Of a stretch of 10,564 nucleotides of DNA, positions 1-9,690 are shown piece by piece. Both the position numbers and the translations under genes were made by a program. The notes under the pieces were generated by a model. It was not told the DNA's origin and did not search any database. It worked only from the letters and a program-made list of their open reading frames with translations. Numbering within the stretch: the stretch's first letter is position 1; each line of letters starts with the position of its first letter. The DNA comes from Nitrospinae bacterium RIFCSPLOWO2_12_FULL_45_22. Lineage in GTDB: Bacteria; 2-12-FULL-45-22. Location: positions 1-10,564 of the forward strand of contig MHDQ01000231.1 of the NCBI GenBank assembly GCA_001803565.1, written 5' to 3'.

Positions 1-609
1 TGAGCCTACATAATAGGCCACCGGCATCGGCTCACCCCGGGCATGCCACTTCTTCATAATAAGATCCCCTTGCTGGCCATAGGTAGGGTCATAACCGATG
101 CCATTACGGGTATGGATCATACCGCGGTAGTTGGCCCAGTTATTCCAATGCTCCTCCGGGTCCTCCATGCACCAGCAGCCGGTAGTGGTATACCGACCCC
201 CATCACCATGATGCAGATAAGGCCAGGGGAACTTCAGGAGATTCGCCTCTTTACCCATCTGGATATGTTCTTTGCAGGGCCCGGTAGAAACTATGGTCGG
301 AGGGATACCGGTGTATAGTCGCCTCAAGAGTTCAAAGGCAAAATCAAAAGGATGGGCATCGGGCGGGGCACCACCGGCAATGGCTAAACGGCGCCATATC
401 TGCTGCGGTGGGCCTGCCCAGGGCTCTCCCAATAACGTATAACCCTCCGGATAACCTTTTATTTTTTTGAACCAAAGGATTGGGCCGCCTACCCGGCAAG
501 ACATGGTAGAGAAGGCCGCCGCCTCCAGATTCCAATCTACCTCTTCTTCTATCTCGATCAACTCCCCCAACTCTTTTAATCGCTTTATGAATTCTCGTAT
601 TGATGGCAT
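1..609 (-). CDS. UbiD-family (de)carboxylase, N-terminal part, cut by window edge
   Basis: The first 203 codons of a UbiD-family protein are present; the gene continues beyond position 1. Family members use prenylated FMN to decarboxylate or carboxylate aromatic or conjugated acids in the cytoplasm. The start is the ATG at 609-607, preceded by an AAGGGGG ribosome site. Visible family features are the opening IREFIKRLKELGELIEIEEEV, KKIKGYPEGY (49-58), STGPCKEHI (108-116), FPWPYLHHGDGGRY (127-140) and NNWANYR (156-162). R162 matches the catalytic Arg (R173 in Aspergillus Fdc1) and N157 the metal/prFMN ligand Asn. The His expected 18 residues after the Arg is Q180 here. The Glu motifs lie outside the window. 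It is a paralogue of the gene at 950-2464 and lies downstream of it on the same strand, so the two may form a heteromer, as in phenylphosphate or naphthalene carboxylases. Family call is secure; substrate unknown. Confidence 0.9.
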   Translation of the reverse strand, partial: MPSIREFIKRLKELGELIEIEEEVDWNLEAAAFSTMSCRVGGPILWFKKIKGYPEGYTLLGEPWAGPPQQIWRRLAIAGGAPPDAHPFDFAFELLRRLYTGIPPTIVSTGPCKEHIQMGKEANLLKFPWPYLHHGDGGRYTTTGCWCMEDPEEHWNNWANYRGMIHTRNGIGYDPTYGQQGDLIMKKWHARGEPMPVAYYVGS

Positions 610-628
610 CTTGACCCCCTTGTTGGTT

Positions 629-853
629 AACTGGTTAATTAGTGAGTAACCGTTCAGCCACCAAGGCACTAAGTCACCAAGAAGCTCAAAACTTAAAATG
701 CAAAGTCTAAAATTAAGGTAATTATTCCTCCCTGCCTGTGCGGTGCACGCAGACAGGAGCTTTACACTTTTAGCTTTGCGTTTTACATTTCCTTGGTGCC
801 CTTGTGTCTTAGTGGCTGATAAAGCTTAGCCGGGTGAACTGGTTAATTAGTGA
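629..853. repeat. 17-bp direct repeat flanking an inverted repeat
   Basis: The 17-mer AACTGGTTAATTAGTGA occurs at 629-645 and again, identical, at 837-853. The pair brackets the large inverted repeat at 657-816, and a further degenerate copy (GATTGGTTAATTGG) follows the second. A direct repeat around an inverted repeat is what a small mobile element or its target duplication would look like, but 17 bp is long for a duplication. It may equally be part of a longer dispersed intergenic repeat. No gene is visible in 610-949. Confidence 0.6.
657..816. repeat. about 160-bp imperfect inverted repeat between the two ubiD genes
   Basis: The left arm begins GCCACCAAGGCACTAAG (657-673). The right arm ends CTTGTGTCTTAGTGGC (801-816), which is its approximate reverse complement. 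Inside these, AAAATGCAAAGTCTAAAA (695-712) matches the complement of TTTTAGCTTTGCGTTTTA (768-785). The core is a GC-rich palindrome, CCTGCCTGTGCGG then CGCAGACAGG. The fold therefore pairs over nearly its whole length. It lies between two same-strand genes, so a transcript running through would form a long hairpin that could separate expression of the upstream and downstream ubiD genes. There is no T-run typical of a terminator. Confidence 0.75.
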
Positions 854-949: not shown

Positions 950-2464
950 TTAGCGGCCAACAATCTGGGGCTTGGGTTTTATCCCTAATTTTTCCCAGCG
1001 CTCTAATACTCGCTTACGGATCTCTTGAGGGAAATGTTCAAAGGAGAGCCTGGCTGGTATATCCTCCTTGGGCCAGGTAGTGGGGAAGGTACAGTCAAAA
1101 AAGACCTTGCTGCCTGTACCGCGTTTCTTGTCTTCCTCGCTAGTATAAGCCACTAACGGACTCAGCGAGGCATCGGCCCCTTCCCAGATAACGATCCCCC
1201 TATCCGGATGGTTCTTCTCTATGAAATCCCAGTAGACATAGGTCATCTCCATGGGTGGCACATCATCTTCCACAAAAATAAGCTTATCAATTAGCCTGCC
1301 GGCCCGAGAGGAAAATACGGTAGCCGCTATCTGGTAGGGATGGCCGGGGAATAGGGGCTTTATAGAGATTACACCGGTGGTAAGGCCCCACTCGACCGGT
1401 AAGTTCAGCCAACGGACAAATAGGTTCGCATGGAGTCTAATTATTCTGATAAGTTCAAAAGAGGCGGTAGTAGACAAAACAGCCATAAAATCCGATACTT
1501 TAGCCCCATCTACTATAAAAGGCAGGATAGGGTTTTTGCGATGAGTAATGGCTTTTACATTAATAACTGGTTGAGGAGAAGGTTGAGAATAGCCAGCCGT
1601 CTTCTCACCATAGGGCCCCTCAATAATACGCACATGTGGTGGGACTTCCCCTTCTATCACGATCTCAGAGGTTGAAGGCACCAACAGGTCAGAAGACTCG
1701 GCCTTTACCATCTCTATCGGCTCTAGTCTCAACCCCCCTGCTATTGCTGCCTTATCCGTACCTTCCAATAGGAAGAATAATGAAGAAATATATAGAGCCA
1801 CTGGGGCACCTAAACAGATACATATCGGCATGGGCTTGTTTTCTCTTTCATACTTCTGATATATCTTCCAGATCCCTTCACCGATAATAGTAATGAGAGA
1901 AGGCTCTTGAGGTAAGAAAGAACCTATAAGGGTCCGATAATCTTTAATCATGACCCGGCTGAATCCCCATTCTTGCATACCACTCTCTGGATCCTTAGCC
2001 GTGATCCCATGAAAAGAGGAATACCGTCCCCCATCATCGGCATGGATAAAAGGGAAAGGGAAATTAAACAGGTCCACTTCGTCCCCCAGAAGGACCTCCT
2101 CCTTGCAGGGGCCACTCTTGACCTGAGTAACGCGCAAAGGACTTCTCAACCTTTCCTTTATCACGTCCAAAAATTCCGGGTAATAGTATTTGTTATAAGC
2201 AAGGTTATGCTCTAATTCCAGGGCAATAGCCTGTCTGGTCCAGGGTAGCCGTTCCCGGGTATAAAGGGTCCCGGGACCGCTCAAGAGGCTCGTAGCCATA
2301 CTATACCCTTCCGGATAGCCCTTTATATTTTTGTAATGGATAGCCTTATCCCCCAGGCGGTTGCTCATGGCCCCCAAGGCAGCCGCTTGCAAGTGCCAAT
2401 GAATTTCTTCTTCAATCGGGTTTAGCTCCCCCATCTTCTCTAGCCTGGCAATATATCTTCTCAT
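950..2464 (-). CDS. UbiD-family prFMN-dependent (de)carboxylase, full length
   Basis: 504 residues, the usual UbiD length. Start at 2464 follows an AAAGGGGTG ribosome site. Motifs: KNIKGYPEGY (45-54), SGPCKEEVLLGDEVDLFNFP (117-136), HADDGGRY (141-148), WGFSR (166-170), AIAGGLRLEPIEMV (240-253) and EGPYGEKTAGY (282-292). R170, E282 and E287 fit the catalytic Arg-Glu-Glu set of Fdc1/UbiD. The three residues that bind the metal and prFMN phosphate in Fdc1 (N168, H191, E233) do not appear: the Asn position is E165, no His is seen in the 185-200 segment, and the Glu of the usual D-E-x-x-x-AG motif is K238. It may therefore be a divergent or non-catalytic subunit pairing with the partner at 1-609. 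It starts 15 bp after the mrp-like gene, so the two are co-transcribed. Family call is firm; substrate and direction of reaction are unknown. Confidence 0.92.
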   Translation of the reverse strand: MRRYIARLEKMGELNPIEEEIHWHLQAAALGAMSNRLGDKAIHYKNIKGYPEGYSMATSLLSGPGTLYTRERLPWTRQAIALELEHNLAYNKYYYPEFLDVIKERLRSPLRVTQVKSGPCKEEVLLGDEVDLFNFPFPFIHADDGGRYSSFHGITAKDPESGMQEWGFSRVMIKDYRTLIGSFLPQEPSLITIIGEGIWKIYQKYERENKPMPICICLGAPVALYISSLFFLLEGTDKAAIAGGLRLEPIEMVKAESSDLLVPSTSEIVIEGEVPPHVRIIEGPYGEKTAGYSQPSPQPVINVKAITHRKNPILPFIVDGAKVSDFMAVLSTTASFELIRIIRLHANLFVRWLNLPVEWGLTTGVISIKPLFPGHPYQIAATVFSSRAGRLIDKLIFVEDDVPPMEMTYVYWDFIEKNHPDRGIVIWEGADASLSPLVAYTSEEDKKRGTGSKVFFDCTFPTTWPKEDIPARLSFEHFPQEIRKRVLERWEKLGIKPKPQIVGR

Positions 2465-2479
2465 ATGACACCCCTTTCT

Positions 2480-3394
2480 CTAATTTGACCTATTTAGCAT
2501 ATCCTCCAATGTTTTTGCAATCTTCATAACCTCTTTAGAAGCCGGGCTTTCGGGATGGGCCAGGACAAAAGGCTTTCCCTCATCCGAGCAGACACTTAAC
2601 CGTGGGTCCAAAGGTATCCTACCCAAGAAAGGCACTTCCAGATCCTTCGCTAGCTTCTCACCACCGCCAAACCTTAAAATATTTACTGTGGTACCGCATT
2701 CGGGACAGACAAAACCACCCATGTTCTCTATAACCCCAAAGATCCTCACCTTGGCCTTCCTGCAGAGCAGACTGGCTTTATAGGCTACATTCTGGGATAC
2801 TTCGGAAGGGACCGTTACTATTACTGCACCACTCAGATCAGGAATATATTCCATCATATTCACTGAATCCGAGCTGGTACCGGGCGGCAGATCTATCAGT
2901 AAATAATCCCTCTCTCCATATACCACATGGCTAAGAAACTCCTCGGTAGCATTCCTCCTCATATCATGAAACCAGGTTAATACCTCATCGTCTTGCAGAA
3001 TATTACCCATAGAGATCACCTGGATACCCAATGTGCCTTCCACCGGTAGAATTCCATCATCACTAAGGGTCAGCTTCTTGGCCATAATGCCGAGCATCTT
3101 CGGTACCGTAGCCCCATCGAAATCCTGATCTAGAATGCTCACTTTCCTGCCCAGCATGGCCAGGGCAGTACCTAAGTTCACGGTAGTTATTGATTTACCC
3201 ACGCCCCCTTTACCGCCTACTATAGCAATCTTGTGCTTGATCTTGCTCATAGTTTGTTTAGCCTTACCCATCCGCCGGCGGATAAACATCTTATCTTTCT
3301 CGGGGTTCTCACACTCAAAGAACTTTTCGCAACTCTCACAAAACTTGTCACAACTAAGGTCTACATTAATAGAAATAATCTCCCTGCCTTCCAT
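2480..3394 (-). CDS. Mrp/Nbp35-type Fe-S P-loop ATPase
   Basis: 304 residues of the ParA/MinD-like Mrp/ApbC/Nbp35 group, cytoplasmic ATPases that carry or transfer [4Fe-4S] clusters. A deviant Walker A, GGKGGVGKS, lies at 60-68, followed by LDQDFDGATVPKMLG (88-102), the Walker B/switch region LLIDLPPGT (165-173), ENMGGFVCPECG (223-234) with the cluster-binding C230-x2-C233, and GRIPLDPRLS (258-267). Upstream of the P-loop is an extra Cys set, C15-x3-C19-x2-C22-x5-C28, recalling the N-terminal cluster site of Nbp35 but spaced differently. The ATG at 3394 follows a GGGAGG ribosome site. It is first in the minus-strand unit and 15 bp before a ubiD-like gene. Mrp/ParA-like ATPases are, as far as I recall, also found beside UbiD-type aromatic carboxylase genes. 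Cluster delivery to the Fe-S enzyme encoded divergently is a second plausible role. Confidence 0.93.
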   Translation of the reverse strand: MEGREIISINVDLSCDKFCESCEKFFECENPEKDKMFIRRRMGKAKQTMSKIKHKIAIVGGKGGVGKSITTVNLGTALAMLGRKVSILDQDFDGATVPKMLGIMAKKLTLSDDGILPVEGTLGIQVISMGNILQDDEVLTWFHDMRRNATEEFLSHVVYGERDYLLIDLPPGTSSDSVNMMEYIPDLSGAVIVTVPSEVSQNVAYKASLLCRKAKVRIFGVIENMGGFVCPECGTTVNILRFGGGEKLAKDLEVPFLGRIPLDPRLSVCSDEGKPFVLAHPESPASKEVMKIAKTLEDMLNRSN

Positions 3395-3539: not shown

Positions 3540-3761
3540 AGGGTTTATAAAGGGTTAACTACTTTTGGGCAAACATAAAAGATGCCGGAACAAGGAGGTA
3601 AAATATCCCCTCACCCCTCCTTTACCTTTTAGCACAGTGGACAATTCCATGTCAAACGTTTCGTTTAATGTCAATAAACTTCTGAATTGCCTTGTTAAAC
3701 CTTCTAGGTTGATAATTGTCCTAAACGATAGAATATTCAATGTCTTTTTAGGCAGAACTTT

Positions 3762-3790
3762 TTGGCTAGAAAAAATTTTTCCTTTATTAT
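3762..3790 (+). promoter_or_regulatory. candidate sigma-70-type promoter for the reductase/dehydratase genes
   Basis: TTGGCT (3762-3767) and TATTAT (3785-3790) are separated by 17 bp, matching the -35 and -10 consensus at 4/6 and 5/6 positions. Transcription would begin near 3797, giving a leader of about 68 nt before the ATG at 3865. A second, weaker candidate is TTGCCT (3687-3692) with GATAAT (3711-3716), 18-bp spacing. The region is AT-rich, so chance matches are expected. Confidence 0.35.
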
Positions 3791-3864
3791 ATACTTTTTT
3801 TGGCCAGCAAGCCAGATTTTTTGATTCCCCCATCACCGCAAAGGTTGATAAAAGGAGGTAAGAG

Positions 3865-4989
3865 ATGGAGAGTTTTAAAGAGTTAATAGACAATCGCCAC
3901 GAGTATGCCAGGGAATGGAAGAAAAGAACCGGGGGCAAAGTCCTGGGATATTTATGCTCCTATGTGCCGGAGGAAATAGCTGTAGCAGCAGGGGTACTTC
4001 CGGTCAGGATCTTTGGTAGCCATGAACCTCAGGATGTAGCAGAGAAACATATATATTCGATGTTTTGCCCCTTTTGTCGAGACTGTTTAGCCCAGGGGTT
4101 ATTAGGTAGATATGACTATCTGGATGGGTTGGTCATGGCACATAGTTGTATGCATCTCCGCCAGACCTATTTTTCCTGGAAGACTAATATACCCTTATCC
4201 TACACTTGCTATATCGGGATGCCTTCTAAGCCCCAGAGCCCATTAGCCAAAAAGTTTTTAAAAGGCGAGCTGGAAGACTTTAAGGAGTCCTTAGAAGAAT
4301 GGACCGGTAAAACCACTGGCAATAAAGAACTGGATGAGGGGATAGAGGTTTTAAACCAAAATCGTCGGTTGTTGCGGGAAATATATGAATTGAGAAAGGA
4401 TGAAATACCGCCTCTTACTGGGGCAGAAGCCATGGAGATAGTCTTATCCAGTCAGGTTGTTGATAAAACTGAGCATAGTAACCGGTTAAGTAAATATTTA
4501 GAAGAAATAAAGCAGAGGAGCGGAAAGGGTGAGAAGGATCAGGTAAGATTGATGGTTATAGGCAGTGAAAACGATGATACAGAAATGATTAAGTTAGCTG
4601 AATCTCTAGGCGGTATAGTAGTGATAGATGACCATTGTACTGGGACAAGGTATTTCTGGAATGAGGTAATACCAGAAGAGGATAGACTATCAGCCATTGC
4701 TACTCGTTACCTGGACCGGCCCCGATGTCCGCAGAAAGACTTTGAAACCAGGAGCAGATTGCCGCATATTGCCCAATTGGTCAAGGGTTATAATGTGCAT
4801 GGGGCAATCGTCATCCAGCAGAAATTTTGCGACCCTCACGAACTGGATATTCCTATAATAATGAATTATCTAAAAGAAGAACTAAACACCCCCAGCCTTT
4901 TCCTGGAGTTTGATGTTACGTTCCCGGCAGGGCAGTTCCGGACCAGGATCGAGGCCTTTATAGAAACCCTTCAATTAGAGGTTGTGTAA
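3865..4989 (+). CDS. Benzoyl-CoA reductase / 2-hydroxyacyl-CoA dehydratase small-subunit homologue (BcrC/HgdB-like)
   Basis: 374 residues, close to BcrC and HgdB (about 380). Family enzymes use a [4Fe-4S] cluster per subunit, charged by an ATP-driven activase, for ring reduction of benzoyl-CoA or syn-dehydration of 2-hydroxyacyl-CoA. Visible features: CSYVPEEIAVAAGVLPVRIF (31-50), the Cys cluster FCPFCRDC (67-74), YDYLDGLVMAHSC (83-95), GGIVVIDDHCTGTRY (249-263), FCDPHE (321-326) and a C-terminal FRTRIEAFIETL. Likely cluster cysteines are one of C68/C71/C74 together with C95 and C322. The usual Asp after the second Cys is Met (SCMHLR). The start follows AAAGGAGG with 6-nt spacing. The partner subunit begins 221 bp downstream. 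Benzoyl-CoA-type reductase and dehydratase cannot be told apart from sequence alone. Confidence 0.9.
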   Translation: MESFKELIDNRHEYAREWKKRTGGKVLGYLCSYVPEEIAVAAGVLPVRIFGSHEPQDVAEKHIYSMFCPFCRDCLAQGLLGRYDYLDGLVMAHSCMHLRQTYFSWKTNIPLSYTCYIGMPSKPQSPLAKKFLKGELEDFKESLEEWTGKTTGNKELDEGIEVLNQNRRLLREIYELRKDEIPPLTGAEAMEIVLSSQVVDKTEHSNRLSKYLEEIKQRSGKGEKDQVRLMVIGSENDDTEMIKLAESLGGIVVIDDHCTGTRYFWNEVIPEEDRLSAIATRYLDRPRCPQKDFETRSRLPHIAQLVKGYNVHGAIVIQQKFCDPHELDIPIIMNYLKEELNTPSLFLEFDVTFPAGQFRTRIEAFIETLQLEVV

Positions 4990-5020
4990 TCACTACCTTA
5001 AGCGTAGAGTATTTGCTTTT

Positions 5021-5050
5021 AGGAGCGACAGCGCCAGTGCTGTCATTCCT
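5021..5050. repeat. short hairpin repeat after the BcrC/HgdB-like gene
   Basis: GACAGC (5027-5032) and GCTGTC (5039-5044) enclose a 6-nt loop, and AGGA (5021-5024) can pair with TCCT (5047-5050) across a small internal mismatch. There is no T-tract, so this is not a classical terminator. It looks like another of the dispersed palindromic elements in this genome. Confidence 0.45.
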
Positions 5051-5087
5051 AAACTCAAGGTTTTTGTAAACATACAAGAGGGTATTT

Positions 5088-5184
5088 ACCGCAGAGACCC
5101 AGAGCTTCGGAGAATAGAACTATATGCCGATAGAACTAAACTAGCTCATCAATAGGCTTCTCTGCGCCTCTGCGCCTCAGCGGT
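5088..5184. repeat. imperfect inverted repeat upstream of the selenoprotein gene
   Basis: The left arm, beginning ACCGCAGAGACCCAGAG at 5088, is answered by a right arm ending CTCTGCGCCTCAGCGGT at 5184. Pairing is imperfect over about 28 bp, with about 40 bp between arms. The right arm ends 14 bp before the AAGGAGG ribosome site of the next gene. The sequence type (CCGCAGAG / CTCTGCGG) is a widespread intergenic repeat. Its position between two subunit genes could allow mRNA processing or differential expression, which is inference. Confidence 0.65.
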
Positions 5185-5210
5185 GAATAGTAAAAAATAA
5201 GGAGGCAAGA

Positions 5211-6518
5211 ATGATGGAGACGATAAAAAACTGGGAGAGTAAACCCTTAGAATGTTGGCAAAAGGCAAAGGAATTAAGACTAAATTTTTATAAAGAATTC
5301 ATAACGGCAAATCAGGAAGGCAAGATAGTAAATGTGGCCTGTGGCTTAGTGCCCCAGGCGTTAATTGCTGGGTTTGGGGATTTTGTCCATCTGCAAGGGG
5401 AGCCTTACGGGGCCAGTTGTGGCTTTGATCGTAGGTTTTCGGACGAAGTAATAGATGCCTTTGAGACCAGGGGTTTTGCCCGGGACCTCTGATCATATTT
5501 AAAGAACCAGTTAGGTTCTATCTATGTCAATAAATATCTCTTTGGTGGTGAATTCCCTAAGCCCACATTTGTATTAAGCGGACATGGCTGTGATAGTCAT
5601 GCCAAATGGGTTCAATTAATAGCGGAACATTACCAGGTGCCTTTATATGTCCTTGATCTCGGCCTAGCTGATATAACCGAGAAAAAGACCCAACGAAAAA
5701 TAGAGTATTTAACGGAACAACTATTTGAATGTGTGGAGTGGCTCGAGCAAGTTACCGCGAAGAAATTTGACGAAGATAGATTCAGAGAGGCTTTTATTAA
5801 TACTACCCAGTTGGGACAGCTCTGGGCCGAAATTTGCTGCCTTAATAAGGCCATTCCGGCACCTTTAGACCAAAAATCCATGTACTCATTCTTTGCCTTC
5901 CCCCTACTGGCACCCCATAGGAAAGAGACCGTAGAGCTTTATCGAGAGTTACGGGATGAGACGAAATGGCGGGTAGAGAATAAGATAGCCGCAGTAGCCA
6001 CTGAGAGATGCCGACTATTCCATGATGGTCAACCACCCTGGGGATTCTTGAAAATTTTTCGCTATCTGGAAAAATATGGCGCCGTGTGTGCCGGTGGAAT
6101 ATATGGCTTTTCTTTGGGAGCAACCTGGGATTGGGATAAAATGGAGCCCGCCAAAACCCCTATAGAAAAAGGGGCCCCTTTAGATACCAGAGACGATTTG
6201 ATTAAGGCTTATGCCGAGTGGTACATAAAGAGTTATATCGCCCAGAATATGTTATTTTCCCCCCTATGGAAGGCCGAAGCCTATCTAAAGACTATGAAGG
6301 ACTGGCATATTGATGGACTATTGGTCCATCTCAATCGGGGCTGCGAAGGATGGGCCTTTGGTCAGTTAGAGATGCGCCTGGGGGTGATAAAAGGCGGTTA
6401 TCCGGTATTAACCTATGAAGGGAATATGAGTGATAACAGAGAATTTGACGAATCTCAAACGCTGGATAGGCTTGAGGCCTTCCTCCAGAGCCTGGGGCTA
6501 AAAAAGCTGACCGATTAG
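5211..6518 (+). CDS. Selenocysteine-containing benzoyl-CoA reductase / 2-hydroxyacyl-CoA dehydratase subunit (BcrB/HgdA-like), TGA read through
   Basis: Read through one TGA (5490-5492), the frame gives 435 residues, close to BcrB (about 430). ATG at 5211 follows AAGGAGG; ATG 5214 is an alternative. Homology is continuous on both sides of the TGA. Upstream are ACGLVPQALIAGFGDFVHLQ (43-62) and GEPYGASCG (63-71). Downstream are SYLKNQLGS, VLSGHGCDSHAKW (121-133), GFSLGATWDWD, and HLNRGCEGWAFGQLEMRLG with C378. The TGA is residue 94 in the context RDL-TGA-SYLKNQLG, where relatives have DLCSY. From memory of 2-hydroxyisocaproyl-CoA dehydratase (alpha C84, C117, C346), spacing 94 to 127 is the same 33 residues, so residue 94 should ligate the active-site [4Fe-4S] cluster. 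A SECIS-like hairpin follows. Alternatives are a nonsense mutation or sequence error (TGA for TGC/TGT). If read as two genes, 5211-5492 would be a 93-residue fragment with no ribosome site for the remainder. Confidence 0.82.
5490..5519 (+). promoter_or_regulatory. UGA(Sec) codon and bacterial SECIS-like hairpin
   Basis: After the in-frame TGA (5490-5492) come 10 nt, then a perfect 6-bp stem AGAACC (5503-5508) / GGTTCT (5514-5519) closing the 5-nt loop AGTTA (5509-5513). UGA-to-loop distance is 16 nt, and a G is the second loop base. Bacterial SECIS elements, as I know them from E. coli fdhF and from published consensus models, have an upper stem-loop about 11 nt after UGA, a UGA-to-loop spacing of roughly 16-37 nt and a G in the first two loop positions. 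All criteria are met. SelB binding to this hairpin would direct Sec insertion. Confidence 0.75.
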
Positions 6519-8282: not shown

Positions 8283-8525
8283 TCAGTAGAAGGCAAATCT
8301 CGGATGTAGAACATCGGAGTTAACCCGAACGATAAAAACATGCTCATTAACCGCGGCTTCGTCAAAAGGAAAATCATCGTTTACAAAAGCTGTTTTGCCT
8401 GTTGTGGCTCTATCCTTTACAATTAGAACATCATTCCGAAGGATATTGCCTTGATTAAGGGATTCATAATAGGATCTCGGTATAAATTTCATTCCCTCAA
8501 GACGTGGCTTGCCATCATTGAACTC
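8283..8525 (-). pseudogene. hsdS fragment, end of a target-recognition domain
   Basis: The minus-strand frame reads REFNDGKPRLEGMKFIPRSY, then LRNDVLIVKDRATTGKTAFV, DEAAVNEHVFIVR and HPRFAFY before TGA at 8285. The GDxLxxKDGATTGK-type turn and NEHVFIVR strand are characteristic of HsdS target-recognition domains. Similarity continues upstream of the ATG at 8492 to about 8525, where the transposon ATPase sequence on the plus strand begins. The junction therefore looks like a breakpoint. This piece belongs to a recognition-domain end, and the 8173-8277 piece to a domain start. Their abutment implies loss of the central conserved helices and part of the second domain. Confidence 0.7.
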
Positions 8526-9070: not shown

Positions 9071-9690
9071 AAAAAGATATCTCTTGAGAAGGGGATTTCC
9101 CGGAAAATACGGTTGCCCTTATTGGTTTTCCTTTGGATAAGGGCATTGAACGGATCGGGGGACGTATCGGCGCATCCCGCGGACCGGCCCGGATCAGAAA
9201 AGCCTTTTACCGGTTGGCAAACGGATGTCGCCATCCGATTAATGAGTTAACTTTGCTTGACCTAGGTGATGTAGTACCTCAGATGGATCTAGAAACCTCC
9301 CATGAGCAACTGGGCGATATTATAACCTTCTGGATAAAAAAAGGAATATTACCCATTGTCCTGGGAGGCAGCCATGACTTAAGCTTCGGCTCAGTCAGTG
9401 GCTTAATCCAGGCAATACCTGGTCAGGAGAAAATCGGCCTGATAAATATTGATAGTCATCTCGATATAGATGTATGTGCGCGGGCTTATACACCAGGAGC
9501 CAGTGCATCCCAAGCCGATGGACTTACGGCTTCAGAAATCCTTCAGATTAGTTTTTTGGCTGGAAAAGAGAAGAAAGTTAAGCTCTTGGATGTCTGTGAA
9601 GTCAGCCCGCTTCTGGACATAGCGAATATGACGGTTAGCCTGGCTGCCCGGATTATCTATTGCTTTTTACAGGGCCTGACATTAAGATAG
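9067..9690 (+). pseudogene. Decayed ureohydrolase (formiminoglutamase/agmatinase/arginase family)
   Basis: From ATG 9067 the frame meets TGA at 9085-9087 after six codons, then stays open to TAG at 9690. Family motifs are VALIGFPLDKG, GRIGASRGPARIRKAF, LPIVLGGSHDLSFG (first Mn-site His and Asp), INIDSHLDID, and the C-terminal TPGASASQADGLTASEIL and DVCEVSPLLD. The DSHLD motif runs directly into IDVCARAYTPG, which in intact enzymes belongs to the second metal motif (DIDxxDPAxAPG) some 80 residues further on. The piece between, including the SGTPFR-type loop, is thus missing in frame, and the DP of DIDxxDP is AR. Length is about 207 codons against about 300. No SECIS-like hairpin follows this TGA at suitable distance. 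A nonsense codon plus deletion makes it a pseudogene. If expressed from TTG 9133, the product would lack the active-site loop. Confidence 0.85.

Follow-up and report, generated by a model that had tools for sequence, protein, structure and literature searches.

The window analysed here spans 10,564 nucleotides, positions 1 to 10,564 of contig MHDQ01000231.1 of Nitrospinae bacterium RIFCSPLOWO2_12_FULL_45_22, and its forward-strand frame at 5211-6518 raises the question of how a TGA falling on the codon of a conserved cluster cysteine is to be read. Our best explanation, to which we assign a probability of about 0.88 in the absence of protein or read data, is that the frame encodes a selenocysteine (Sec) form of a BzdO-like protein, the subunit that carries the active site in a class I, bzd-type aryl-CoA reductase, and that Sec serves there as the first cluster ligand. 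Enzymes of this kind break aromatic rings open anaerobically.

The TGA-containing gene and its surroundings

The gene starts at an ATG preceded by a ribosome-binding-like GGAGG and encodes 435 amino acids when the TGA is read through. The single TGA at 5490-5492 (codon 94, forward strand) is the sole interruption of a frame that is open on either side, in agreement with the initial annotation, which had described the frame as continuous around this codon. The same annotation had recognized the DLCSY motif of the family in the residues flanking the TGA, as the alignment with BzdO bears out, and had likened the 33-residue interval up to Cys127 to that between C84 and C117 of HadB. These HadB numbers hold: counted from the alignment, the TGA corresponds to HadB Cys84 and Cys127 to HadB Cys117, and the third cysteine that had been pointed out, Cys378, is present.

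The encoded protein matches the HGD-D superfamily profile PF06050 with 170 bits (gathering cut-off 28.4). It aligns over nearly its full length with BzdO of Aromatoleum sp. CIB (PDB 8s02; E 2e-112, about 41% identity), and its AlphaFold model (mean pLDDT 91.3) superimposes on BzdO with a TM score of 0.94 and an rmsd of 1.5. In the BzdNO structure, the protein holds the active-site [4Fe-4S] cluster through Cys95, Cys128 and Cys380, and the fourth iron bears a water or hydroxide beside Glu65 and His131 (PMC11971306). Residue 94 lands on BzdO Cys95, that is on the first cluster cysteine and not at a non-conserved position. Cys127 (5589-5591) and Cys378 (6342-6344), both encoded on the forward strand and invariant in 34 aligned relatives, are the predicted second and third ligands, equivalent to Cys128 and Cys380, and Glu64 and His130 align with the catalytic Glu65 and His131.

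Upstream lies an intact gene for a BzdN-like partner subunit (3865-4989, forward strand), which has all six cysteines of the [8Fe-9S] double cubane and no Sec. It resembles the BzdN of 8s02 (E 5.5e-125) and scores 433.6 bits with TIGR03190, under the cut-off of 453.8; the BzdO-like protein scores 404.6 bits with TIGR03191, under the curated BzdO cut-off of 448.6. At the substrate, BzdO Trp46, which stands beside the ring and is conserved as Trp in 20 of 33 relatives, is Leu46 in our protein, and the near-substrate residues Ser44, Trp46 and Leu302 are altogether replaced by Cys, Leu and Ser. Since both subunits remain below their NCBIfam cut-offs and these three residues are changed, the substrate may not be benzoyl-CoA. 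The proposal of a BcrB/HgdA-like subunit of a benzoyl-CoA reductase or dehydratase thus stands as to the family and has to be amended as to the type: the protein is bzd-type (BzdO-like), falls short of the cut-off for a true BzdO, and benzoyl-CoA is not certain as its substrate.

An aromatic substrate is nonetheless plausible because UbiD-family genes lie divergently upstream and UbiD-like carboxylases have been proposed as anaerobic activators of benzene and naphthalene (PMC12016498). One of them, encoding a UbiD-family (de)carboxylase (950-2464, reverse strand), suggests aromatic metabolism and is adjoined by a gene whose profile matches indicate an Mrp/ApbC-type ParA NTPase (2480-3394, reverse strand); the other (1-669, reverse strand) runs off the contig, leaving only its start. 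The ATP-dependent activase (BzdPQ type) that a bzd-type reductase requires is represented in the genome by ten matches to BcrAD/BadFG activases, with none on this contig. The 221-base gap separating the two subunit genes (4990-5210) contains repeat-like words (CTCTGCGCCTCTGCGCCTCAGCGG), and a 30-base piece of it was found again at 87% in another locus (L052); no inverted repeat was found in this gap, and scans for sigma-70 promoters and terminators gave no excess over shuffles. Elsewhere in the window, an arginase/agmatinase-family ORF (9133-9690) matches mainly the first part of its profile and seems to lack some of its middle or its end, and a short ORF on the reverse strand (8283-8492), beside an AAA ATPase ORF, resembles a piece of the specificity subunit of type I restriction systems.

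Selenocysteine machinery and a second TGA-containing gene

The source genome is a draft of 3.67 Mb in 321 contigs, 85% complete. A search for selA, selB, selC and selD, which the initial annotation had proposed as a check, found the whole set: a tRNA-Sec with anticodon TCA (75.3 bits, cut-off 47), SelB (372 bits, cut-off 242), SelA (588 bits, cut-off 268), whose gene adjoins selB, and SelD (401 bits), which carries an in-frame TGA of its own at the UxxK motif (GGG-U-ACK).

A second HGD-D-family gene of the same genome also contains the TGA. L050 (G000:C53, ORF 3643-4890 of its locus with the TGA read through) is only about 26% identical to the 5211-6518 protein and has its TGA at the same alignment column. 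It directly follows its own HadC/BzdN-like partner gene, and its best alignment is with HadB, where the TGA again falls on the first ligand cysteine. A gene for a BadI/MenB-like hydratase was also seen nearby on this contig. Within the 5211-6518 gene, 57 other codons are one substitution away from TGA, against only three cluster cysteine codons; given these numbers and the paralogue with a TGA at the same column, the position of the TGA is more than chance. In the tree, the 5211-6518 protein pairs with the Cys-containing paralogue L047 (contig C153) and L050, a long branch, with the Cys-containing paralogue L057, each with support 100/98, and all four come from the same genome. Because each TGA-containing gene pairs with a different Cys paralogue, the topology suggests two separate Cys-to-Sec changes as its simplest reading, without a formal test.

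Hairpins resembling bSECIS elements follow both codons. In the 5211-6518 gene, AGAACC-AGUUA-GGUUCU (5503-5519, forward strand) has its loop 16 nt downstream of the TGA, G being the second loop base, and folds at -9.5 kcal/mol (z -2.2 to -2.7); in L050, a stem of eight pairs closes a GUG loop at a distance of 18 bases, with an energy of -16.6 kcal/mol. Both satisfy the published bSECIS model (loop of 3-9 nt, spacing of 16-37, G in the first two loop bases, energy of -7.5 or lower). However, of 399 Cys codons taken as a control from long ORFs of the source genome, 61 (15%) passed this test as well, so that the hairpins lend only weak support. The Rfam model SECIS_1 gave no match, nor did it in any control genome, and it is hence uninformative.

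Among the fetched relatives, the column of the TGA is occupied by Cys in 121 alignments (some loci being counted repeatedly) and by Asp in one, TGA being confined to these two genes. The Asp (GAT) belongs to a Dehalococcoidia BzdO-like paralogue (L067:246-1526), whose genome contains 28 family matches. Two further relatives that had been flagged as stop-bearing (L089 and L098) were discarded since they simply end with an ordinary TAG at the C-terminus. When the TGA-bearing version of the motif was searched for as a degenerate DNA pattern, the source genome gave two matches, exactly at the 5211-6518 gene and L050, and there was no match in 19 other chosen genomes nor in 395 genomes of one phylum and 400 of another (795), these phyla being those of a Desulfonema-labelled genome and of a Dehalococcoidia genome. 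This pattern is blind to forms departing from the G-F/Y-x-x-D-x-U motif. A profile search in the same two phyla found no TGA orthologue among the few candidates scored per genome, and weaker ones could escape it. Altogether, neither 79 genome loci nor the roughly 815 genomes scanned by pattern yielded a TGA orthologue from another species. Outside the source genome, no close orthologue, with or without the TGA, was encountered (best 47%); conservation of the TGA across species therefore cannot be shown.

Alternative readings of the TGA

Could the codon be a TGC or TGT that was misread in sequencing or assembly, the protein then being an ordinary Cys-containing BzdO homologue? The genome is an incomplete draft in many contigs, TGA is a single substitution from either Cys codon, and every close relative has Cys. 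Yet the identical substitution would have to have arisen independently at the corresponding codons of two genes on different contigs, and in a genome that possesses both the complete Sec machinery and a SelD of the Sec type, which leaves this reading extremely improbable. The TGA could also be a recent nonsense mutation, the gene being dead or yielding only a 93-residue fragment while the 60% identical Cys paralogue on C153 does the work. Neutral decay downstream of the TGA, which would have refuted the Sec hypothesis, was not seen: identity to L047, the nearest paralogue, amounts to 58.1% upstream of the TGA and 59.7% downstream of it, with dN of 0.31 and 0.34 and dS above 2 on both sides. 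Since dS is near saturation, only the contrast between the two sides is meaningful, and it speaks against decay because identity is alike on both sides and dN stays far below dS. A recent loss would show no decay either, and L047 does exist as a substitute. Nevertheless, the start, the ribosome-binding site and the partner gene are all intact, and mutation would have hit the cluster cysteine in two separate genes despite so many other near-TGA codons in the 5211-6518 gene alone; we consider an inactivated gene very unlikely. As for a changed genetic code, in which TGA would be read as another amino acid such as Trp, the frame does run on past the codon, but TGA is the ordinary stop of 10 of the 41 long ORFs of the genome, on which ground genome-wide recoding is rejected, and a tRNA-Sec with a TCA anticodon is present together with SelA, SelB and SelD. 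The chance that this reading is right is negligible.

A different kind of alternative accepts Sec insertion and gives it a mainly regulatory meaning: the UGA would couple the isoenzyme to selenium supply, Cys paralogues would cover a shortage, and the cluster chemistry would be unchanged. It is compatible with the structure of our best explanation and competes only with its chemistry. Both Sec-type proteins have Cys paralogues in the same genome, and a similar option was raised for Sec in NifD (PMC3760896). On the other hand, there are no expression data, and a chemical role is suggested by the choice of the cluster ligand in both genes, although the picture would be the same for any other invariant Cys. 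We regard regulation as an unlikely main function.

Possible role of selenium and related systems

In the reading that we prefer, a Sec-containing BzdO-like subunit, the SelA, SelB, SelD and tRNA-Sec of the genome itself would insert Sec at UGA codon 94. Sec94 would take the place of the first cysteine ligand of the active-site [4Fe-4S] cluster, whose three protein ligands would then be one selenolate and two thiolates. Together with the BzdN-like subunit and an ATP-driven activase from another part of the genome, this subunit would reduce the ring of an aryl-CoA at the water-bearing iron of the cluster. The proposal, made before these analyses, that Sec is a ligand of the substrate-binding [4Fe-4S] cluster is supported: every refuting condition that could be checked spoke in its favour, with the TGA at an invariant cluster cysteine, the Sec machinery present and decay absent. 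The ligation itself is inferred, as are Sec insertion, aryl-CoA activity and any functional gain from selenium, none of which has been shown.

What selenium would bring can only be guessed: it may render the ligand resistant to oxidative damage or tune the cluster to a modest extent. That it alters the cluster potential, as previously suggested, is speculative; according to PMC3760896, which cites work on model compounds, the potential of such compounds barely responds to terminal Se ligands. In [NiFeSe] hydrogenases, selenium has been argued to protect from irreversible oxidation (PMC13188914). By analogy, such protection, or selenium-dependent switching between isoenzymes, may be just as likely here. 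A broader hypothesis, to which we would give somewhat less than even odds, is that a single lineage has on two or more occasions adopted Sec to bind the catalytic [4Fe-4S] cluster directly in the 2-hydroxyacyl-CoA dehydratase/benzoyl-CoA reductase superfamily, and that Sec makes the chemistry of the cluster (its hydrogen-atom transfer, range of substrates or resistance to damage) differ from that of the Cys isoenzymes in the same cell.

The closest known system is BzdNO of Aromatoleum sp. CIB (8s02), which has the same fold, the same three ligand positions, the equivalents of Glu64 and His130 and the six double-cubane cysteines of the partner, and which differs by Cys95 in place of Sec; no activase gene lies on the contig of our protein. 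The 2-hydroxyisocaproyl-CoA dehydratase HadBC (PDB 3o3m) belongs to the same HGD-D family and has its first ligand, Cys84, at the same position, whereas its similarity to our protein is much lower (E 5e-32) and its reaction is another one. BamF, the electron-transfer subunit of the ATP-independent class II benzoyl-CoA reductase, is a selenoprotein and thus also associates selenium with anaerobic aromatic metabolism, but it is not homologous to BzdO. To our knowledge, Sec directly on a catalytic Fe-S cluster has rarely been proposed, and we know of no case in the HGD-D/benzoyl-CoA reductase superfamily. The nearest idea is that of alpha-Sec62 in NifD of a few anaerobes, likewise a prediction from sequence only of Sec at an invariant metal-cluster ligand in an ATP-driven low-potential reductase (PMC3760896); NifD, however, belongs to another family, and its P-cluster is an electron relay and not a substrate site. 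PMC12016498 refers to Peters 2004 for selenoproteins of benzoate metabolism. The 119 families of prokaryotic selenoproteins catalogued in 2026 include no 2-hydroxyacyl-CoA dehydratases and no benzoyl-CoA reductases (PMC13188914), and we found no paper on selenium in a BzdO-type subunit, unlisted GenBank annotations not being excluded. We rate the finding as a new combination, at a catalytic cluster, of a known enzyme family and a known amino acid.

As BzdNO structures and a calculated mechanism exist, a comparison of the Cys and Sec forms is directly feasible, and it would reveal the effect of selenium on a [4Fe-4S]-OH2 cluster that generates radicals. Finally, annotation pipelines may truncate such genes at the UGA, and Sec forms of this widespread family may thus go unnoticed.
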